64,000 bases of DNA from Acidithiobacillus sp. AMEEHan (GCF_030996345.1 NZ_CP118747.1:1176001-1240000), one strand, 5' to 3'. Counted from the stretch's first letter, positions 52,925-63,873 are shown. The notes: a model not told the origin generated them from the sequence alone. Made by a program: numbers and translations.

Positions 52925-55687
52925 ATGCGTTTGGGTTCTTTCCATCACCTGCGGGTTGCGGTGGTAATTGGGGTTTTGACGTTGCTCTGGGTGGGCTTGT
53001 TGCCTGCACAAGCTGCTTCCCTGCCCAGTGTTGGATTTTACTATGGCGACGGCGCGGCACCTGCGGCGTTCCATGATTTTGACTGGGTGGTCGTCAATCC
53101 TGGAGGCGATCGTTCACCCAGTGCCTTCGCTCCGCAACAAAAGGTTTTCGCCTATGTCAGTATTGGCGAAACGACGCCCGGTGACGATCGTTATGCGCAG
53201 CTTCCGGAATCCTGTGTGCTGGGTCGTAATGCCGCTTGGGGCGGTAAAATCATCGATCTCGCGCATGCGCAATGTCGCGACTTTCTCCTGCAGAAAGTCA
53301 TCGATCCAATCTGGGCGGAGGGATACCGCGGATTTTTCCTGGACACTCTCGACTCCTATGAGGCAGTGACGGAGGGGGCGGCGCGGAAGGCTCAGGAACA
53401 GGGGCTCGTCGATCTGATTCAGGCCATCAAGGCGGCGCATCCGCAGGCACAATTGATTGCCAATCGGGGTTTCTCGGTACTGCCACAGATTCACCAAGAC
53501 CTGTCTGCAGTGCTGGCTGAGTCGCTGTTCCACGAATGGAATCAATCAGCCCAAAGCTATCAGGAGGTGTCGGCATCCAACCGTGAGGCTCTTGTCACGG
53601 AACTGCGTAAGGCGCAATCCTTTGGTCTGCCAGCTATCGTGATCGACTATCTGCCGACAAAACTCAATCGCGAGGGGTGGTGGAAGGATGCCGAGAAGAT
53701 CCGGGCTCTGGGTTTTATCCCCTATGTGACCAATGGCAAGCTGACGGCAGTTGGTGCTGGCTTGCGTGAGCCGATGCCGCGGCATGTCCTGATCCTGTAT
53801 AACAGCACAGGCCCAAAAGAATACAGTGAGGCGTTTGCCGATGGCGCCATGCCTTTGGAGTATCTCGGCTACATTCCCGAGTTCCGGCGTTTGTCCGATG
53901 GCTTGCCCAAAGCTCCCTACGCTGGGGAATACGCGGGGGTGATATTATGGAGTGATGGCGATCCGGTGACTGATGTTGCCGGTCTTTCGCGCTGGTTGCG
54001 TGGCGTGAAACAGGCGGGAATACCACTCCTGCTGATGGGGGATTTTCAGGATGATCTGGATGCCGAATTCTATCAGGCACTGGAAATGTCTCGCCCTCAG
54101 TCGGTCACGACCAGTTCGGCAGAGGTTGTCAGTGCGGCCAAGGAAATGAACTATGAAATGCCGGTGCAGGCCAGCACTCGGGATTTTCTCGCGACGAACG
54201 CCCCAGCGGGCAGCCAGATTTGGCTGCATCTGCGCGACATCTCCGGCAGTAGCGAAGACGCCGCAGCCATCACTCCGTGGGGTGGCTATGTATTGTCGCC
54301 CTACATCTTGAAGACACTACCGAATAAGGACACCCGTTGGCTCATTGATCCTTTTGCGCTGTATCGAGAGGCCCTGCGTTTGCCGCCAATGCCAGTACCC
54401 GATACGACGACCGAAAGTGGACGACGTCTGTTCATGGCGCATACCGACGGCGACGGATTCGTCAGCCGCGCCCAGTTCCCGCCGTACCACATTGCTGGTG
54501 AGGTCTACATGCACCGGATCCTGGAGAAATACAAGTTGCCGTTTACGGGTTCCATCATTGTTGGCGACTTGCTCCCCGGTGATCGTGGACTGTATCCGGC
54601 GCTCGCGCCCCTGGGTACCCAGGTGGCCCGCGAGGTGTTTCGTCTGCCCTATGTGGAAATTGGTTCGCATATGTGGTCGCATCCCTTCAATTGGCCAGCA
54701 ATCGAAGCAGGGAAGGATTACCCCGGTATCAATCTGCCAGTCCCGGGATACAAATTCAGTCCCTACATGGAGGCGGTAGGTGCTGCCAAGTGGATTGATC
54801 AACACCTCGCGCCCCCCTGTAAACAGGTGGTAATTGATCAGTGGTCGGGGGATTGTGAACCCGATGCACGGGTGGTGGGCCTTGCGTATGGGGCCGGATT
54901 GATGAACATCAACGGTGGTGACAGTTATATCAGCAAAAAGGACCCGAGTATCACGGCGGTTCCCCCCATCGGCATTTTTCGCGGTAAATGGTTGCAGGTC
55001 TTTGCTCCAGATGCGAACGAGGATTACTTTACCAACCAATGGCACGGGCCGTTCTGGGGCTATATCAATGTCATCCAGACATTCGAGATGACCAACAAGC
55101 CTCATCGCCTGAAACCGATCGACATCTATACGCATTGGTATACGGCGACCAAACTGGCCTCTCTCTCTGCGCTGGAAAAGGTATATGACTGGGTTCTGAC
55201 CCAATCCATCACCCCCACCTATGTCGCCAATTATGCGCACATCGCGAATAATTTTTTCACCATTCACATCGCGCGCCAAGGTGATGGTTTCTGGATTGGT
55301 AATGCCACTGACCTACGTGAACTGCGTATGCCGAAAAGCCTCGGCTATCCCAACCTCGCGGCCAGCTCGGGCATTGCGGGGTACAACGATACGCCAAACG
55401 GTGCCTACTACGTGCATATGGATGGCCAGGGGTCGGCATTTTTGGCTCTGCAATCCGCGGCCCCGAAGGTACCGTACATCAGGAGCGCCAACGCGCCCAT
55501 CGCCTCTTATCAAGAAAATGCCAATGGCTTTACCGCGCAGCTCGATGGTTTTGTGCCGGTACAGCTCCATCTCGCCAATGTGCAGGGTTGTGAGGTAAGG
55601 CTGAACGGCAAGCCAGCAACAGATTCCGAGCAGATCCAGAGCAGTTCGCAGCGTGTGCGTGTCGATGTCCGCTGCCCGACAAGCTGA
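52925..55687 (+). CDS. pelA: Pel polysaccharide hydrolase/deacetylase PelA
   Basis: Periplasmic enzyme that trims and partly de-N-acetylates Pel, an N-acetylgalactosamine/galactosamine polymer. Signal peptide (to about residue 31, AQAAS). N-terminal hydrolase domain with FFLDTLDSY (about residues 137-145). The deacetylase domain has MAHTDGDGF (D508, D510) and GSHMWSHPF (H582, H586), a metal-binding D and HxxxH pair. These match the arrangement in Pseudomonas PelA. The 920 residues match PelA in length. First gene of the operon; its 3' end overlaps the first PelB-like gene by 23 nt. AGGAGG is 5 nt before the ATG. Confidence 0.93.
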   Translation: MRLGSFHHLRVAVVIGVLTLLWVGLLPAQAASLPSVGFYYGDGAAPAAFHDFDWVVVNPGGDRSPSAFAPQQKVFAYVSIGETTPGDDRYAQLPESCVLGRNAAWGGKIIDLAHAQCRDFLLQKVIDPIWAEGYRGFFLDTLDSYEAVTEGAARKAQEQGLVDLIQAIKAAHPQAQLIANRGFSVLPQIHQDLSAVLAESLFHEWNQSAQSYQEVSASNREALVTELRKAQSFGLPAIVIDYLPTKLNREGWWKDAEKIRALGFIPYVTNGKLTAVGAGLREPMPRHVLILYNSTGPKEYSEAFADGAMPLEYLGYIPEFRRLSDGLPKAPYAGEYAGVILWSDGDPVTDVAGLSRWLRGVKQAGIPLLLMGDFQDDLDAEFYQALEMSRPQSVTTSSAEVVSAAKEMNYEMPVQASTRDFLATNAPAGSQIWLHLRDISGSSEDAAAITPWGGYVLSPYILKTLPNKDTRWLIDPFALYREALRLPPMPVPDTTTESGRRLFMAHTDGDGFVSRAQFPPYHIAGEVYMHRILEKYKLPFTGSIIVGDLLPGDRGLYPALAPLGTQVAREVFRLPYVEIGSHMWSHPFNWPAIEAGKDYPGINLPVPGYKFSPYMEAVGAAKWIDQHLAPPCKQVVIDQWSGDCEPDARVVGLAYGAGLMNINGGDSYISKKDPSITAVPPIGIFRGKWLQVFAPDANEDYFTNQWHGPFWGYINVIQTFEMTNKPHRLKPIDIYTHWYTATKLASLSALEKVYDWVLTQSITPTYVANYAHIANNFFTIHIARQGDGFWIGNATDLRELRMPKSLGYPNLAASSGIAGYNDTPNGAYYVHMDGQGSAFLALQSAAPKVPYIRSANAPIASYQENANGFTAQLDGFVPVQLHLANVQGCEVRLNGKPATDSEQIQSSSQRVRVDVRCPTS

Positions 55688-56516
55688 TCTGGCTGGCGGT
55701 CGGGCGCATCTACTACGCCCGGCGAGTCTGCTGCTTTTTGTTGCGATCGTTCTGGCGGTGATCGCCGGTGTCGCCTGGCAGTATGGTTGGCATGGTCCTC
55801 TATTTTTTCAGGAGACCGCTGCCGATGCGCAGGCGCATCTGGAGAGTGCGGACCTGATGTTGCGCAGCGGTCAGTATACTGCGGCACGAAGACAAATTGC
55901 TCCCGTATTGCGTGAACCCGACGGTCCTTTGTACCGTCAGGCGCGCCTCCTGCAATGGCGGATCGACAAAACGGAAACGCTTGCCATCCCTGCAGACTCG
56001 CCGAAGCGTGAGGCAGCGCTGCGGAGCTTGCGCCCGCAGTTGGCAGGACTGTATGCAATGGGTTCCTGGCCGCTTGCCCAGTGGCAAGCCTTCGCGCGGG
56101 ATGCCTATGCCTTGGGTGCCTACGACCTCAGCGCACAGGCGTGGTTGGCGGCCGCCAGAGCAGACCCGCACGAGCGGGAGGCTGATCAGCTTGCGGCCGC
56201 ACATGCCTGGGCAGCTGGCAGTCAGCCGGCCAAAGCCGGTGCTCTCCTTCTGCAGCTCGCGGCGCAGAGTCAAGACAGCGCACGAGCGAAGCGTTGGTTC
56301 TTGCAGGGGATACGATGGATACAGGGTGGAAAAGGCGCAGAAGCTGCCCTGCAAGGAGCGCAATCGACTCTGCAGAGGTTGCCCCAGCTATGGCAGGATC
56401 ATGAGGTGCTGCTCGCCATGGCGGAGCTGGCCCTCTCTGCTGGTCGCCCGCAGCTGGCCGCAGAGTGGCTGCGTCGCGAATTGTTGCGCAAAGCCCCTGG
56501 CAGGAAGATGTCATGA
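55665..56516 (+). CDS. PelB-like protein part 1: membrane-anchored N-terminal TPR segment
   Basis: A 283-residue protein with one N-terminal transmembrane helix (PASLLLFVAIVLAVIAGVAW, about residues 24-43), then a helical region with repeats of TPR character (AHLESADLMLRSGQYTAARR; AAHAWAAGSQPAKAGALLLQ). Pseudomonas PelB also begins with a membrane helix followed by TPRs, but is one 1,193-residue protein. ATG 55665 lies inside pelA (23-nt overlap); the frame is open upstream to 55653. The next gene starts with overlapping ATGA. Role as the inner-membrane-proximal part of the Pel export apparatus is inferred from order and shape. Confidence 0.65.
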   Translation: MSAARQADLAGGRAHLLRPASLLLFVAIVLAVIAGVAWQYGWHGPLFFQETAADAQAHLESADLMLRSGQYTAARRQIAPVLREPDGPLYRQARLLQWRIDKTETLAIPADSPKREAALRSLRPQLAGLYAMGSWPLAQWQAFARDAYALGAYDLSAQAWLAAARADPHEREADQLAAAHAWAAGSQPAKAGALLLQLAAQSQDSARAKRWFLQGIRWIQGGKGAEAALQGAQSTLQRLPQLWQDHEVLLAMAELALSAGRPQLAAEWLRRELLRKAPGRKMS

Positions 56517-58159
56517 AGATTCGCGCCCTCGCGATCAGCTTCGTTCTCGCGTGGTGCGCGTTGCCAGCGCTTGCCGCTTCGATGCCCTCGGATTGGTGGA
56601 AGGCGCCTGGTAGCCTGGCTTCTGACGACGCAGAATGGCGGGCGAAGTATCTGCAGCAAAAAGAGGTTGCAAATGCCTTTGCCGCGGATTTACAGGCCAG
56701 CCAAAAATCGGGCAAGGGGATGAGTTACCTGGACCAAGGCGGCGTATCACCATCCTGGTACCGGCCACCTTTGGAAGTGCAGCCCTATCCGGCGAAATAT
56801 TCGCAAAAGCTTTACGATCTGGCCTACAGCGCTTTTTTGCAAAGTCATGAACTTGACGAAGCCTACCGGCTGGCTTTCACGGCGGTTCAGAAGCGGCCGG
56901 ATGATCGGCTTTGGCGCCAGCGGCTGATCGAAGTTGCGGGCTGGTTGGGTCAACGCGAAGAGGTGTTACGTCAGCTGCATTGGCTCGCGGAGCATGGCGA
57001 TGCGACGGCACAGGCTAAGGCAATATCGCTGGCCTTGACTCTGGAGCGGCCGGATATCGTCATCAGCATGCTGGCACCGGCGGCACACAGTCGGCCGCTC
57101 AGTGACGCAGAGTGGAAATCCCTGATCTATGCATACGGGCAGCTCGGCGAACCAGACCGTGCGTTGAAGGCCCTCGATTATGCGCTCCAACGTTTCGGCC
57201 CCCGGCGCTATCTGCTGAATCAGAAGGCGTATCTCAGCTATCAGATGGGCGACATCGAAGCCAGCCTGCACGCCTTGCAGCGCAGTGCCGGGCAGTACGG
57301 TTCCGATCCGTCGATAGCGATCGAAGAGGCGCGCCTGTTGTCCATGCAAGGGAATTATCGTCTGGCCTTTGCCGCGCTGGAGCGTGTTCGTGCGCAAGCG
57401 ACCCTGGAAGAGGTTCCGTTTTGGCAACTGTATGCCGTCCTCGCTTGGGAATTGCATGATCATGACGCCGCATTGCAGGCGGAAAAGACGCTCTATCTTC
57501 TGGGCGCTGCCAATCAATATGATTTGCAACGTTTGGTACGATTGACGGGTGAGAAGGAACCCGAGGCGGCTTTGTCGGTGGCCATGCTCGGATGGCGCAA
57601 ATACCATCTCCCGATTTTTTACTTCGAAGGATTGTATTATGCAGCTGCAGCCAAACATTGGGAGACCTTGGGGCAACTGTTGCAAGAGGTGGCAAAGTCC
57701 GACCCGGATGGCCTGCGGAATTTTCCCGCCTACTGGTTGGCGTTGGGGCAATGGGCCAATGCCCGTCTCGACTACCACCTTGCCGGATACGCCTATGCAG
57801 AAGCCCTCCGACGGAACCCTGATGATACTGTCGCCGAAAACAATTTGCTGTGGATGCTCATCGACAGTGGCCAGCTACGTCTGTTGCGCGCCGTTCTGGT
57901 GGGGAACACGGCGCAACCGGAATCGGCCCTGCGCGATGCCGTGCGTAATGCCCTCGAGCGTTTGAATCTGAACCGCCAGGCCCTCTATTTGCCTAGGGAC
58001 CTCGCGAAGGTAGCGCCAAGCGCGCGGGCCCCGCGTTTGCTCAACGAGGCATCTCTCTGGGATAGCACTGGTCAGACCGGTCTGGCTTGGAGCTTGCGTC
58101 GTCAAGCGGCCTGGCAAAGTGCTCAGGAGTTACGCGATATGGATGGGGGTGATCGGTGA
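56513..58159 (+). CDS. PelB-like protein part 2: exported TPR scaffold
   Basis: A 548-residue protein with a signal peptide (MKIRALAISFVLAWCALPALAA). The remainder is mainly helical repeats, e.g. YDLAYSAFLQSHELDEAYRL, LIYAYGQLGEPDRALKALDY and AYLSYQMGDIEASLHALQRS, fitting TPRs. It corresponds in position to the periplasmic TPR region of PelB that binds PelA. ATG 56513 overlaps the previous stop (ATGA). An upstream in-frame extension from 56465 would place the signal peptide internally. The next gene overlaps as GTGA. I expect it to be periplasmic. Confidence 0.7.
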   Translation: MKIRALAISFVLAWCALPALAASMPSDWWKAPGSLASDDAEWRAKYLQQKEVANAFAADLQASQKSGKGMSYLDQGGVSPSWYRPPLEVQPYPAKYSQKLYDLAYSAFLQSHELDEAYRLAFTAVQKRPDDRLWRQRLIEVAGWLGQREEVLRQLHWLAEHGDATAQAKAISLALTLERPDIVISMLAPAAHSRPLSDAEWKSLIYAYGQLGEPDRALKALDYALQRFGPRRYLLNQKAYLSYQMGDIEASLHALQRSAGQYGSDPSIAIEEARLLSMQGNYRLAFAALERVRAQATLEEVPFWQLYAVLAWELHDHDAALQAEKTLYLLGAANQYDLQRLVRLTGEKEPEAALSVAMLGWRKYHLPIFYFEGLYYAAAAKHWETLGQLLQEVAKSDPDGLRNFPAYWLALGQWANARLDYHLAGYAYAEALRRNPDDTVAENNLLWMLIDSGQLRLLRAVLVGNTAQPESALRDAVRNALERLNLNRQALYLPRDLAKVAPSARAPRLLNEASLWDSTGQTGLAWSLRRQAAWQSAQELRDMDGGDR

Positions 58160-59628
58160 GACGCAAGGGTCTGGGCGTTCTGGCGTTGCTGACGGCAAGC
58201 TCTTGCCTGTTTCCGGCCCTGGCCCGCGCGAACGGCGACAATACGGTCTCGTCCCAGTCCGCAGCTCGTGCCGTTCCCGTCCGCCAGCCGACGCCTGACT
58301 CCGACTTTGCGCACGATCCCTTGTATACCCTTGCCGATGCTTTGGCCGCAGCACCCGCTGGCGGCAATGTGACGCGCCATGTGTTGCTTGCCGCGGCACG
58401 TCGGGGCGATTTCCTGCCCGCCATATCCTGGAGTTTGGCGCACGGCTACTGGGGCCTCGCGCAACTGCTGGCCACCAGTAACCCGCAGCCGACGCCGCGG
58501 TGGGTAGAGCTGAGCCTGGCACTGCATGCCCACGATACGCCTGCCCTAGCGCGTCTCTTGCGGCACCCGCAGGGTCTACCGGTGCGCGACCGCATGCAGG
58601 CGCAGATGGAGCTGGGACGTTACCGGCAAGCCCGGCAGGATGCATTGTCGGCTATGCAGACCGATCCGTTTGACCGTCTTCTGCGCCGCCAATATCTGGA
58701 AGCCGTGCGCGAGAGTGCGAGCTTCGTGGATCTTGCGGGCAGCTGGCAAGCGTTCAACGGCCTCAGCCTCTTTGGACCGCGGCTGCGTGGACGGATCGCC
58801 TGGAATGACCGTTGGAGTTTGCTATTTGACGCCGATGCCTTGGCGCAGTCCGCGTCTGCGGCTTCTCAATTGCTCCGCGTGCCCTCGTGGAGTAGCCGTG
58901 ATTTGGTTGGTTTCCGCTGGCAAGATCCGCGCTGGCAGATAGAGGGCTTATTGGGAAGCTATCAGGCCGAACGAAACAATGTGAGCGCGCGTATCTCGCT
59001 TGCCTGGCAAGCGACCGATACGGGCGAATTCTCCGCCAACTTCGATTATCATGACCGCAGTCTGCAAAGCCCTGCCCTCGCAGTGGCAGGCATGGTCAAC
59101 CGCATTGACTTGCAGTGGGCGCAGCGCTTCGGTTCCTGGCTGGGCAACATCGGTGGGGGATGGCGGCAATATCAGGGACAGGATGGGGACGCACTCGGGA
59201 GCGATCGCTTCGGCGAGGTTTCCTTGTTGTGGCGTCATAATCTCGGCCCTTGGGAATTCCAAGTTGGACCCTTCGCCGATTATCACGATCTTACCCGGGT
59301 TACTCAGTTGCAAGGAGTACTGGCTGCCGCGTTGCAACCGGATGCCCGTATCCCGGATCTTATATTGCCCGGTAGTTACGCCGATATCGGAATGCGAGTG
59401 CAGTGGGGAACTTGGGAGCGGGCCATCGCTAGTGATTGGACTCCGTATATCGCCCTCAGTGTGTATCAGAATACCCGGTTTGGGCCGCAATATCAGTTCG
59501 ATGCAGGTTTGAGTACCTCGGTTTTTGGGCCGGATCGGCTGCGTATTGGTTTCGCCCAGGGGCAGGGAGGAAATGGGTTGGCCTTGAATCAGCGCATGGT
59601 GCGCCTCGGATACCGTTTTTATTTTTAA
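58156..59628 (+). CDS. pelB: PelB-like protein part 3: outer-membrane barrel
   Basis: A 490-residue protein corresponding to the C-terminal porin domain of PelB. It has an N-terminal hydrophobic signal (LGVLALLTASSCLFPALARA), a helical region of about 170 residues (ALAAAPAGGNVTRHVLLAAAR; TPRWVELSLALHAHDTPALA), then many amphipathic beta-strands (e.g. RNNVSARISLAWQATDTGEF; WAQRFGSWLGNIGGGWRQYQ). It ends in LGYRFYF, a proper outer-membrane barrel C-terminus. GTG 58156 overlaps the previous stop. Expected to form the Pel exit pore, joined with the PelC ring. Confidence 0.78.
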   Translation: MRRKGLGVLALLTASSCLFPALARANGDNTVSSQSAARAVPVRQPTPDSDFAHDPLYTLADALAAAPAGGNVTRHVLLAAARRGDFLPAISWSLAHGYWGLAQLLATSNPQPTPRWVELSLALHAHDTPALARLLRHPQGLPVRDRMQAQMELGRYRQARQDALSAMQTDPFDRLLRRQYLEAVRESASFVDLAGSWQAFNGLSLFGPRLRGRIAWNDRWSLLFDADALAQSASAASQLLRVPSWSSRDLVGFRWQDPRWQIEGLLGSYQAERNNVSARISLAWQATDTGEFSANFDYHDRSLQSPALAVAGMVNRIDLQWAQRFGSWLGNIGGGWRQYQGQDGDALGSDRFGEVSLLWRHNLGPWEFQVGPFADYHDLTRVTQLQGVLAAALQPDARIPDLILPGSYADIGMRVQWGTWERAIASDWTPYIALSVYQNTRFGPQYQFDAGLSTSVFGPDRLRIGFAQGQGGNGLALNQRMVRLGYRFYF

Positions 59629-59650: not shown

Positions 59651-60184
59651 ATGAATTGGCGCGCAGTAGTCGTTTCTGTAGGACTGGTGGCTTCGCTTGG
59701 TGGCTGTGCCGGTATGAATGTGCAAACGGCCGGCCCGCTCGCAGACAACAAGGGAGCCACCTGGGCGGTGCTGCCCTTTGCCAATAATACCGAGACTCCG
59801 ATGGCCAATGCCCGTGCGGCGGCGATCGCTGCAGGTACCTTGCAAAGTGAGGGACGGCCGGTACTTGGGAATCTGCCGATCAATACCCGTACCGAAGCCC
59901 TCCTTGGTGGCGACTGGAAGCGGGAATATGCGGACGCCTTGCGTCAGGCGCGTGCCGATGGAGCTCGCTATGCCCTGGCGGGAAGTGTCGATGAATGGGA
60001 TTATCGTGCTGGGATTAATGCCGAACCGGAAGTGGCCATGACGCTGTGGGTGGTCGATGTTGCCAACGATAAGGTGGTGTGGAGTGGGGTGGGCAGTGCC
60101 CACGGCGGAAGCCTGGGACGTGGCGGCACAGGAGGGGTTGCGCAACGCCTGATCCAGCGCCTCCTCAATCGCGCGCTTCACTAG
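59651..60184 (+). CDS. pelC: Pel export lipoprotein PelC
   Basis: A 177-residue lipoprotein. The lipobox is LGGC (C about residue 19), followed by MNVQTAGPLADNKGATWAVLPFANNTETPMA. WAVLPFANNTETP and YALAGSVDEWDYRAG fit the small alpha/beta fold of PelC, which forms a dodecameric ring under the outer membrane that funnels negative charge-guided Pel to the PelB pore. GGGGGAATC lies before the ATG. pelD begins 4 nt after its stop. Confidence 0.88.
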   Translation: MNWRAVVVSVGLVASLGGCAGMNVQTAGPLADNKGATWAVLPFANNTETPMANARAAAIAAGTLQSEGRPVLGNLPINTRTEALLGGDWKREYADALRQARADGARYALAGSVDEWDYRAGINAEPEVAMTLWVVDVANDKVVWSGVGSAHGGSLGRGGTGGVAQRLIQRLLNRALH

Positions 60185-60188
60185 CATC

Positions 60189-61478
60189 ATGGGCATGCTG
60201 ACGGCGCTGCCACGACGGGGCGAGGGCTGGCTCGAGGCAATTCTATTGCCGATCTGTGCATTACTGCTCAGCAATTTTCTGCGTCCCCAGGATCCCCTGT
60301 TGTTCACCCAGGGGTTCCCCTGGTTGATGCTCATCCCCTTGCTTATCGCCTTGCGTTACGCCTTCCTGCCGGCATTGGCTTCCATGGTGATCCTGGCCAG
60401 TGATTTTCTCTGGCATCCCTATCCGCTGGGTGTCAGTCTGGAGCTTGCTGCCGGTACCTTACTGGTGGTGCTCATTGGGTCGGAATTCAGTGCATACTGG
60501 TCGCGGCGCGAGACGGGACGTGCGCTGGAGGAAGAAATTACCGCAACCCGGCTGCGTCAGCTCGCGGATGACCTCTACGTCACGCGAATTTCCCTCGATC
60601 GTCTGGAGCAAAGCCTGCTCTACAAACCGGTTTCTGCGCGTACTGCCCTGGAAGACCTGCGACGTAGCCTCATTGCCAATCGAGGTGTCCTGAACCGGGA
60701 GATCGTATCCCGGGCCTTGTATTTTCTGAATCAGCTTGCCGGGCTACAAGTGGCTGCCTGGTATTCTCGCCCCGCTGCGAATACGCATCCAGTCTTGCTG
60801 GCTAGCTTCGGTGACGTTACCGCACTGAATGAGATGGATCCTGTTTGGCACCAGGCGGTTGCAGAAGGCCAAAGCCAGAATATTGCAGGCCTTGATTTGG
60901 CGCAGATCCAGCAATATCTGTCCGTCCATGTCTGCGGGGAAGAGGCCGGAATCGTATACTATCTCGCCATTGAAGAGATGTCTTTTTTTGCTATTAGCAG
61001 AGAAAACTTGCAGATCGTAGAGGTTTTATTTCAGTACCTCTGTAACTATTCCGAGGCAGTTCAATTTTCTCAGTCATTACTGCAACATTGGTCTGATTGT
61101 CCACCAGAGTTTGCTGTCGATTTTCTGCAACTGCAGCGTTTGGCAAAGATCGTCGCGAAGGTGGGGTTCTGTGTTCGCTACGTTCTGCGGGATGCCCCAC
61201 AAGCGGAGGCGATCGTGCGAAGCATGCAAAACCTGCGTCGCGGATTGGATGTATTGTGGTTGCATCGCGGTGGAAGCGACCTGTATCTGCTGGTTCTGCT
61301 GCCATTTTCTGGCCAAAGTGCGATGGAGGGCTACCTGCGGCGTGTGGAAACCCAGATCCAGGAAAGCTGCCGCAACGAGTGGGAAAAGGTTTTTCAACGC
61401 AGAGATGCCTTGGAGCTCGACGGCAGGGACGCTGTTGTCCAGATTCGCGCCTTCCTCGAAGAGGGAGATTCGCCGTGA
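60189..61478 (+). CDS. pelD: c-di-GMP-binding Pel regulator PelD
   Basis: Inner-membrane receptor that activates Pel synthesis when c-di-GMP is bound. N-terminal helices (about residues 15-98) are followed by a coiled segment (RALEEEITATRLRQLADDLY), a GAF domain (about 145-300) and a degenerate GGDEF domain. RGLD at 351-354 is an RxxD I-site motif of the type that binds c-di-GMP in Pseudomonas PelD, and LHRGGSDLYLLVL replaces the GGDEF catalytic loop, so it should not make c-di-GMP. Arg384/385 (YLRRVE) may be the further contact. Length 429 is close to PelD (455). pelE overlaps its stop as GTGA. Confidence 0.88.
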   Translation: MGMLTALPRRGEGWLEAILLPICALLLSNFLRPQDPLLFTQGFPWLMLIPLLIALRYAFLPALASMVILASDFLWHPYPLGVSLELAAGTLLVVLIGSEFSAYWSRRETGRALEEEITATRLRQLADDLYVTRISLDRLEQSLLYKPVSARTALEDLRRSLIANRGVLNREIVSRALYFLNQLAGLQVAAWYSRPAANTHPVLLASFGDVTALNEMDPVWHQAVAEGQSQNIAGLDLAQIQQYLSVHVCGEEAGIVYYLAIEEMSFFAISRENLQIVEVLFQYLCNYSEAVQFSQSLLQHWSDCPPEFAVDFLQLQRLAKIVAKVGFCVRYVLRDAPQAEAIVRSMQNLRRGLDVLWLHRGGSDLYLLVLLPFSGQSAMEGYLRRVETQIQESCRNEWEKVFQRRDALELDGRDAVVQIRAFLEEGDSP

Positions 61479-62377
61479 TTTTGGTCGCTATCCTTTATTT
61501 TTTTGTTGCCTTGGCGGCATCGTTAGGGGCAAGCGTCATTGCGCCACGGGAGAGGGCATTACGGGGTTGGTTGCCAGCCTGGCTCCTGTTTCTCTTGCTC
61601 AGCGTTTTTCTCCCATTCCTGGGTGCGGTGCTTGCCGTAAGTTATGCGATTGCCCTCCGCTCCGTGCGGCACCGTATTCACGTTGCCGCAGTAGAACCAA
61701 TCCTCGTGCCGGCTCCCGCACGAGACCTTCGTCTACGCATTTCCGTTGCCTCGGAGGGAGCGGTGGCAGGTCGGCTGAGAGGATCCAGGAATCTTGGTCA
61801 GAGGGTGGAGGCACTTTCCCAGATCGTCTCCTCCCGTTTTGCCGAACAAACTCGTTTGCTGCGCTCTGCGTTACGTGACGAAGCCGAAGAGATCCGCTTG
61901 CTGGCCTATGCTGCCTTGGATCAGCGCGAACAGGAAAATACGGAACTCTTGTTAGATCTGCAGCAGGATATTGAACACAGTTCCAGCCCCCGCCTGCGGC
62001 AGCGGCTGCAGGAATATCTAGCCTGGTTGCGGTGGAACATCGACCACACCGATTCTCGTGAGCTGGCCGATCCGTTGCTGCGGAAAGAGGAGGCGAAGCC
62101 TGAGCTTGGCTTCGATGACCAGGCGGTGGAGCCGGCGCCAGCCATGCTGCGAGGGCTGCGTGCATTGGAAATCGGCGCTGCGGGCCAGGCGCTAGAGCTT
62201 TTTCGGCAAGCCGAGCAAGCGAATGTGGCACCGAGTGTGCTTGCCCCCTATCGAGCGGCAGCGCTTTATCTTCAGCGCGACATTCAAGGTTTGCAATCGG
62301 TATACGCAGATCATCCCGAGATGGCTCTCTCTCCGCGTTACGCCGCGTCCTATCGTTTCTGGATAGGTCAGAAATGA
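61475..62377 (+). CDS. pelE: Pel synthesis membrane protein PelE
   Basis: A 300-residue protein with two N-terminal membrane helices (VAILYFFVALAASLGASVIA and LPAWLLFLLLSVFLPFLGAVLAV) and a cytoplasmic helical region with TPR-like repeats (LREALRDEAEEIRLLAYAALDQ type; MLRGLRALEIGAAGQALELF). This is the PelE layout. GTG 61475 overlaps the pelD stop, with GAGGGAG upstream. The next gene overlaps by 4 nt. In Pseudomonas, PelE joins PelD, PelF and PelG in the inner-membrane synthase complex. Confidence 0.83.
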   Translation: MILVAILYFFVALAASLGASVIAPRERALRGWLPAWLLFLLLSVFLPFLGAVLAVSYAIALRSVRHRIHVAAVEPILVPAPARDLRLRISVASEGAVAGRLRGSRNLGQRVEALSQIVSSRFAEQTRLLRSALRDEAEEIRLLAYAALDQREQENTELLLDLQQDIEHSSSPRLRQRLQEYLAWLRWNIDHTDSRELADPLLRKEEAKPELGFDDQAVEPAPAMLRGLRALEIGAAGQALELFRQAEQANVAPSVLAPYRAAALYLQRDIQGLQSVYADHPEMALSPRYAASYRFWIGQK

Positions 62378-63873
62378 TGATGCGTAAATCTGTCGAGTCC
62401 GTGGATGTCCTACTGATTCTTGAAGGGACTTTTCCCTACGTCCGCGGCGGAGTCTCGTCTTGGGTGAATCGAATGATGCAAGGGTTCCCTGAACACCGTT
62501 TCGGCATCATTTTTTTGGGAAGTGCCCGTGACGAATACACCGCCACGCCTTATGCATTGCCGGAGAACGTAGACTATTTTGCGGAATATTTTCTCCATGA
62601 CAATAACGAGCTTCCACCTAAAAAGGTTGAATTGGCGGCTAAGCGACCAGATTTGCAGTCGGTTGAAGTTGCCCATGAGCAAATGAAACAGTGTATCGCC
62701 GGCAAGCAAGAAGGGCTGGATCTTGCCGCTTATGCGAATAACTTCTCGATAAGTCAGCAGATTTTTTTGTATTCCGAATCAGTATGGCAGTATTTCCTTG
62801 CGCGCTATGCAGAGATCCCGGATCAGCCCCCCTTCGTCGATTATTTTTGGACGATTCGCGGTATGCATGCCCCCCTCTGGGTGATCCAGAATGCTGTGAA
62901 AAGGGCACCCCAGGCCAAGATCATGCATTGTCCCTCAACCGGTTATGCCGGCTATTTGGGGGCTCTACTCAGCTATCAGCAAGGTCGGCCGTTGCTCATT
63001 TCCGAGCATGGCATCTATACCAAGGAGCGCCGCATCGACTTGATGCTGGCTCGCTGGATCGAGGAAGACGAAGAATTCTTGCAGCGTGCCGGCCACATTC
63101 ATTATCTACGGCAGCTCTGGATCAATTTTTTTTCCCTGCTCGGTAAAATCACCTACAGCCAAGCCCATAAAATCATCAATCTGTACAGCGGCGTGATTCC
63201 GTTGCAGGTTGCCGATGGCGCCAGCCCCGATAAATTGTGCACGATTCCCAACGGGATTGCGGTAGAGAAGTTTGTCTCCTGTCGCCAAGACTATGCGGCG
63301 AGACAGGACGTTGTGGCATTGATAGGTCGCGTGGTCCCGATCAAGGATATCAAAACTTTTATCCGCACCGCTGCAGTCGCTCGCGACCAGGGGCGTAGCA
63401 CCCGTTTCTGGGTTGTTGGTCCCACGGAAGAAGACGAAGAGTACTTTGCGGAGTGTACGGTGTTGTTGCGTCACCTCCAACTGCAGGAGCAGGTGCAATT
63501 CTTGGGTTTTCGTGCCGTTACAGAGATATTGCAGGAAGCACGTCTCAGCGTATTGAGTTCCATCAGCGAGGGGTTGCCCTTGTCGATTCTTGAGAGTTTT
63601 GCTGCGGGCGTTCCCGTGGTCAGTACCGATGTAGGTTCCTGCCGGGAACTCATCCTCGGCACGAACGCCGATCATCCGCAGGCCGCAGGAAAGGTGGTAC
63701 CCATCGCAGATGCGCAGGCGATGGCGAAAGCAATATACGAACTCTTGGATAATCCCGCGGAGTGGCGGCGCTGTAGCGAGCAGGCGATCGCACGGGTAGA
63801 GAGTCAGTATCGCGAGGAGCAGATGTTTGCCGCATATCGACAGTTGTACGACCAGGCTATGGGAAGGAATTGA
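62374..63873 (+). CDS. pelF: Pel polysaccharide glycosyltransferase PelF
   Basis: Cytoplasmic GT4-family glycosyltransferase that builds the Pel chain from UDP-sugars. VDVLLILEGTFPYVRGGVSSWV is the PelF-type N-terminus and YSGVIPLQVADGASPDKLCTIPNGIAVEKF the linker. LIGRVVPIKDIKTFIRTA starts the second Rossmann domain and SSISEGLPLSILESFAAGVPVVSTDVG holds the E-x7-E nucleotide-sugar motif. 499 residues fits PelF. Three in-frame methionines make the start uncertain by two codons. Overlaps pelE by 4 nt; pelG follows 2 nt later. Confidence 0.93.
   Translation: MMMRKSVESVDVLLILEGTFPYVRGGVSSWVNRMMQGFPEHRFGIIFLGSARDEYTATPYALPENVDYFAEYFLHDNNELPPKKVELAAKRPDLQSVEVAHEQMKQCIAGKQEGLDLAAYANNFSISQQIFLYSESVWQYFLARYAEIPDQPPFVDYFWTIRGMHAPLWVIQNAVKRAPQAKIMHCPSTGYAGYLGALLSYQQGRPLLISEHGIYTKERRIDLMLARWIEEDEEFLQRAGHIHYLRQLWINFFSLLGKITYSQAHKIINLYSGVIPLQVADGASPDKLCTIPNGIAVEKFVSCRQDYAARQDVVALIGRVVPIKDIKTFIRTAAVARDQGRSTRFWVVGPTEEDEEYFAECTVLLRHLQLQEQVQFLGFRAVTEILQEARLSVLSSISEGLPLSILESFAAGVPVVSTDVGSCRELILGTNADHPQAAGKVVPIADAQAMAKAIYELLDNPAEWRRCSEQAIARVESQYREEQMFAAYRQLYDQAMGRN

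Follow-up and report, generated by a model that had tools for sequence, protein, structure and literature searches.

PelB encoded by three overlapping genes, each with its own export segment, in the pel operon of Acidithiobacillus

How can a polysaccharide exporter that is elsewhere a single protein be encoded as three? PelB of Pseudomonas aeruginosa carries 19 tetratricopeptide repeats (TPRs; residues 69-726), an alpha-rich region (727-910) and a barrel (876-1193) (PMC12022489). We analyzed a 64,000-nucleotide stretch of Acidithiobacillus sp. AMEEHan (NZ_CP118747.1:1176001-1240000; hereafter the window, in which all positions are counted), from a host genome of 2.63 Mb. A preliminary description of the window held that three separate genes occupy the place of pelB, and that they arose by evolved splitting and not by a frameshift. 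The evolved split is well supported. Neither of the two outcomes that the description had named as refuting it was seen: the frames stay separate in 14 independently assembled loci, and the first two parts are homologous to the TPRs of PelB. The explanation we consider highly probable is a functional Pel exporter in which fission of the PelB gene has given rise to three co-translated, separately exported subunits that reassemble end to end.

Three genes in the place of pelB

ORF calls show that the slot between pelA and pelC is filled by three tightly overlapping genes, each a complete open reading frame (ORF), joined by the two stop/start overlaps that the preliminary description had reported:

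55665-56516, + strand: pelB part 1, complete ORF, ATG start, the start overlapping the end of pelA
56513-56516, + strand: ATGA stop/start overlap between parts 1 and 2, seen in the sequence
56513-58159, + strand: pelB part 2, complete ORF, 548 amino acids (aa)
58156-58159, + strand: GTGA stop/start overlap between parts 2 and 3, seen in the sequence
58156-59628, + strand: pelB part 3, complete ORF, 490 aa, C-terminus YRFYF

Two in-frame GTG codons lie upstream of the part 1 start, at 55653 and 55659. Instead of a single polypeptide running from the inner to the outer membrane, we found three overlapping ORFs, an arrangement present in 14 loci.

Profile alignment with hhalign places the three parts colinearly along one-chain PelB in all groups, as its N-terminal, middle and C-terminal regions, with probabilities of 94.5-98.8, 99.4-100 and 95.4-99.7 for parts 1, 2 and 3, respectively. 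Parts 1 and 2 together provide a long TPR scaffold homologous to that of PelB. The part 1 profile matched the N-terminal region of one-chain PelB with best values of 1e-14 to 1e-18. By itself, part 1 gave weak TPR signals only in a Pfam scan and no direct match among PDB sequences, while a fold search returned generic TPR proteins with E just above 1e-3. Its AlphaFold2 (AF2) model has a helix at residues 19-39 followed by about six TPR hairpins (predicted local distance difference test score 84, hairpins mostly >90). Part 2 matches the TPR_15 family (1.5e-39), and its residues 113-463 align directly with P. aeruginosa PelB 302-651 (PDB 9h80_M, E 2.1e-15); the match to 5wft is weak. In the AF2 model, about 13 hairpins form a TPR superhelix from residue 98 onward. 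The 5wft region (PelB 332-436) corresponds to part 2 residues 134-233, and the region equivalent to the PelA-binding TPRs 9-14 is predicted by alignment to fall within part 2.

Part 3 consists of a signal peptide, an alpha-rich region and an outer-membrane beta-barrel, and it ends in RFYF as had been described. The PelB barrel family PF24604 covers residues 187-489 (1.8e-43, 149.7 bits, cut-off 31). Since a search of the part 3 profile against PDB sequences gave chance hits only, the identity of the barrel rests on PF24604 and the profile alignment. The alpha-rich region is the predicted stalk for the PelC dodecamer, and both it and PelC are present. In the models, the hairpin counts of parts 1 and 2 (6 and about 13) add up to the 19 TPRs of P. 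aeruginosa PelB. Judged from these models, the first cut would lie near the TPR6/TPR7 border and the second at about the border of TPR19 and the alpha-rich region.

To follow the split beyond the window, we used 29 Acidithiobacillaceae genomes and wider samples of Pseudomonadota, with 39 pel loci. The PelB barrel was found in 19 of the 29 genomes. Among the fully covered loci, which come from three genera, 14 are three-part, the sole exception being G009; locus L043 falls outside this count, its contig ending within part 3. Junction 1 is a 4-nucleotide ATGA or GTGA overlap in all 14 three-part loci and in the 7 of 7 two-part loci examined, and junction 2 is GTGA, ATGA or ATGAATAA in 14/14. Every part is under purifying selection, with ratios of nonsynonymous to synonymous substitution rates (dN/dS) of 0.07-0.34 in eight pairs. 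Conservation is lower in part 1 than in part 2.

Export segments at the breakpoints

Each of the three parts begins with a hydrophobic export segment, and this holds in 14/14 three-part loci (minimum 1.47, in part 3 of L029). In the window, KD12 hydrophobicity is 3.60, 2.43 and 2.17 for parts 1, 2 and 3. The predicted cleavage sites are MKIRALAISFVLAWCALPALA-ASM in part 2 and MRRKGLGVLALLTASSCLFPALARA-NGD in part 3. The restarted export signals that had been proposed for these two parts recur in all 14 loci. Conservation is lower over residues 1-22 of part 2 and 1-40 of part 3 than over the mature proteins, and the signal is nonetheless kept in every locus. At the projected junctions, one-chain PelBs lack a hydrophobic stretch of this kind (maximum KD12 1.9 and 1.5). 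The segments exceed chance expectation: of the interior 40-residue stretches of one-chain PelB, only 1.5% reach a KD12 of 1.69 and 0.6% reach 2.0.

The segments differ in kind. Part 1, which holds the counterpart of the N-terminal inner-membrane helix of PelB, has a KD19 of 2.67 in the window and of 2.37-3.12 across the 14 loci, compared with 1.23-2.03 for parts 2 and 3. Its helices are also longer. This is consistent with an anchor on part 1 and with signal peptides on parts 2 and 3.

These data bear on the possibility that an otherwise normal PelB only looks split, owing to a frameshift from sequencing or assembly or to decay of the gene into a pseudogene. Frameshifted copies of pelB do occur in relatives: in L086 (G675) the gene is frameshifted within part 2, and at G775:C1:662706-663618 the barrel is spread over three frames. 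These breaks have the appearance of decay, unlike the clean three-part split, and no restarted signals were seen at them. By contrast, identical breakpoints and export signals recur in 14 loci of three genera under purifying selection, while signals are absent at the corresponding points of one-chain PelB. We thus rejected an artificial split on the basis of conservation, export signals and dN/dS, and regard its probability as negligible.

Alternatively, the overlaps could be sites of programmed -1 frameshifting or of reinitiation that also yield some fused PelB. Relative to part 1, part 2 does lie in the -1 frame, and upstream the frames of parts 2 and 3 stay open for some way. However, no conserved slippery heptamer was found near either junction, on which ground we rejected programmed frameshifting, and a fused product would carry a signal peptide internally, within the periplasm. 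We consider this alternative very improbable.

Another candidate split, the 634-aa barrel protein of L045 (G394), was rejected as belonging to a different, compact Pel-like locus. This locus encodes a 317-aa PelA piece with GH114 only, the 634-aa TPR-barrel protein with its signal peptide, and divergent PelD, PelE and PelF.

One, two and three chains

Among the 39 pel loci, PelB is a single chain in 18 complete loci, and the three-part form is confined to Acidithiobacillaceae. Five loci (G644, G621, G566, G765 and G675), from four families outside Acidithiobacillaceae, have a two-part arrangement in which part 1 is separate and parts 2 and 3 are joined, with an ATGA overlap after part 1 and a signal on the second gene. 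In an unrooted tree of PelA+PelD+PelF, all one-chain loci lie on one side of a branch with full support (Shimodaira-Hasegawa-like approximate likelihood ratio test, SH-aLRT, 100), and the two-part loci are placed outside the three-part family group. A single clade of all three-part loci was rejected (approximately unbiased test, p-AU 1.8e-30).

At junction 2, one-chain and two-part loci alike are fused, which makes the three-part state the derived one. At junction 1, the split might instead be the older state, with one-chain PelB having arisen by fusion, which would be compatible with the function we propose. Such a history would be allowed by the tree, which has no root and shows a single change of the one-chain label. 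Nonetheless, the one-chain form occurs in more families, including another class (G258), and junction 2 is fused in both outer groups. Fission at junction 1 is favored because one-chain PelB is widely spread, and we find an origin of one-chain PelB by fusion rather doubtful.

Two loci appear to have gone the other way. In L039 (G009), a tree neighbor of the three-part loci L041 and L043, parts 2 and 3 form one ORF from which the stop, start, signal peptide and linker have been lost in frame. The anchor distance is 42 aa in L039, 56-60 in two-part loci and 81-126 in one-chain loci. The fusion looks like a deletion and not an ancestral state, a point that parsimony alone leaves undecided. In L095 (identical with L010; G537, TL1-5.bin26), parts 2 and 3 are also joined. 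This locus falls inside the three-part group even though its family differs from Acidithiobacillaceae, and the barrel is above cut-off in 1 of 9 genomes of its order. The linker at its junction has about 80 residues and no hydrophobic core, and a hidden signal peptide sought there in other frames was not found. L095 is probably a horizontally transferred locus of the Acidithiobacillaceae lineage, and is best read as having re-joined parts 2 and 3. Both loci show that the ends of parts 2 and 3 tolerate adjacency, and the clean deletion in L039 implies that these pieces are positioned end to end.

The segment of part 2 at residues 23-95 (window 56579-56797), which precedes the TPRs, is strongly conserved in Acidithiobacillaceae (DWWKAPGSLASDDA...YLDQGGVSPSWYRPP); two-part relatives have a shorter version of it or lack it. 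The segment may have been acquired along with the split, as a docking element.

A divided exporter and its known counterparts

The proposed mechanism runs as follows. The N-terminal helix of part 1 would hold this protein in the inner membrane, where its TPRs 1-6 would lie close to the PelDEFG synthase. Part 2 would be exported by way of a cleaved signal peptide and would supply the central TPR superhelix (TPRs 7-19), to which PelA would bind. Part 3 would be exported separately, with a signal peptide of its own, and would set its alpha-rich stalk in the PelC ring above the barrel. Docked end to end, the pieces could restore a periplasm-spanning TPR groove for the guidance and deacetylation of Pel, and the stop/start overlaps may couple translation and so match the amounts of the three parts. 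Apparently, a machine of this membrane-spanning kind tolerates cuts at its domain borders and can be rebuilt from the resulting pieces.

The other genes of the operon are in place:

52925-55687, + strand: pelA, hydrolase/deacetylase (PDB 9cgy_A PelA, E 9.9e-151, 35-897; Pfam GH114 2.5e-19)
59651-60184, + strand: pelC, outer-membrane lipoprotein with lipobox LGGC (PDB PelC 5t10/5t11/9h80_C, 6e-24 to 3e-20)
60189-61478, + strand: pelD, cyclic di-GMP receptor (PelD_GGDEF 2.3e-29)
61475-62377, + strand: pelE, start approximate (open frame 61097-62377), position kept in all relatives
62374-63873, + strand: pelF, glycosyltransferase (DUF3492 9e-82, and GT4)

The three parts thus adjoin pelA and pelC within a pel operon whose pelA, pelC, pelD and pelF are recognized by homology and whose pelE and pelG are recognized by position. 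PelA, PelC, PelD and PelF are all intact. Just past the end of the window (L046:15302-19056), pelG is followed by a wcaG-like epimerase gene and by a second epimerase gene, the latter apparently halved by an insertion sequence (transposase on the - strand, L046 17011-18264).

Several points weigh against the proposed exporter. We infer the separate processing and location of the parts, their docking into a complex, their translational coupling and their function. The Shine-Dalgarno (ribosome-binding) motif is clear and above background for part 3, and modest only for part 2. Confidence in the part 2 model is medium at its C-terminal end (predicted template modeling score, pTM, 0.45), and which way junction 1 changed depends on where the root lies. 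In addition, a conserved small-x-Ala motif directly follows the part 1 helix, and part 1 is possibly cleaved there. The transmembrane helix that had been claimed for part 1 is upheld, by the model and by its hydrophobicity, while the permanence of the anchor is likely, not certain. The arrangement put forward in the preliminary description, of an inner-membrane anchor, a free periplasmic scaffold and an outer-membrane pore, draws on predicted signals; by these, part 2 would be cleaved, free in the periplasm and able to assemble with its partners.

A further alternative is that the parts have diverged in role, part 1 being a stand-alone inner-membrane protein on the synthase side and the exporter consisting of parts 2 and 3 only. 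The lower conservation of part 1 relative to part 2, its lack of a direct PDB match and its separate state throughout the wider two-part group would fit such a division. However, part 1 matches the N-terminal TPRs of PelB in order and count, and it always adjoins part 2. We therefore think it unlikely that part 1 has left the exporter, and retain the three-subunit assembly.

It has been proposed, and not shown, that full-length PelB bridges both membranes, since the solved structures cover pieces of the protein only. These acid-loving sulfur bacteria provide natural soluble and membrane PelB subunits with defined borders, which make it possible to ask which contacts are needed, whether the relay can be reconstituted part by part and whether a covalent bridge is required. 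The series of one, two and three chains, together with the re-joined forms, is a clear case of stepwise fission in a transport machine. More tentatively, and less probably than not, PelB evolved through one, two and three chains by cuts at functional borders, with occasional re-joining, and its three-piece form acts as a dissociable and possibly regulated relay of synthase-side TPRs, PelA-binding TPRs and pore, not as a fixed bridge between membranes. If so, polysaccharide exporters that span the envelope could be modular.

PelB of P. aeruginosa shares with the three parts the order of inner-membrane helix, 19 TPRs, alpha-rich region and barrel, as well as the neighbors PelA and PelC. It differs in being one chain of 1193 aa with one N-terminal helix (PDB 9h80, 5wft), whereas here there are three chains and three signals. 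Published constructs of that protein resemble the natural parts and are functional: PelB 762-1193 placed after a foreign signal peptide inserts and assembles with PelC (PMC12141448), and soluble PelB 47-880 enhances deacetylation by PelA (PMC12022489).

Other exporters provide partial parallels. PgaA and BcsC, which export poly-N-acetylglucosamine (PNAG) and cellulose, likewise have periplasmic TPRs and a barrel, and are not known to have an inner-membrane helix piece. Unlike the split PelB, they are single chains and lack a PelC ring (PMC12141448). The alginate exporter has a TPR scaffold and an outer-membrane pore that are separate cooperating proteins; it is not known to have an inner-membrane TPR anchor, and its sugar differs. 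Its TPR protein AlgK is a lipoprotein, whereas part 2, whose signal ends ALPALA-ASM, has no lipobox cysteine at the predicted cleavage site and is not of this alginate type. TPR protein AlgK and barrel AlgE are separate in that system, in which the modifying enzyme AlgX sits on the TPR protein (PMC9734138).

For acidithiobacilli, the pel passages of papers on A. caldus and A. thiooxidans report a complete pel operon (PMC4331095, PMC5852609, PMC6416229), and one of them describes an altered biofilm upon pelD deletion in A. thiooxidans, a related species with a reported pel operon (PMC5852609). The split goes unmentioned in these main-text passages, supplementary figures excluded. The literature searched yielded no account of a PelB in three parts, each with an export signal. 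The closest precedent is, in the text searched, a single figure legend (Fig. 5 iii, PLoS Comput Biol 2020, PMC7112194) that mentions 'pelB fission ... in aquatic thermophilic species', and thus a PelB made from more than one gene in the pel operon; the number of pieces, the signals, the breakpoints, the acidithiobacilli and the step from two to three parts are absent from that legend. Fission of pelB in thermophiles and a separate TPR protein and barrel in alginate export are thus already known, and within the literature searched the three-part form appears new.

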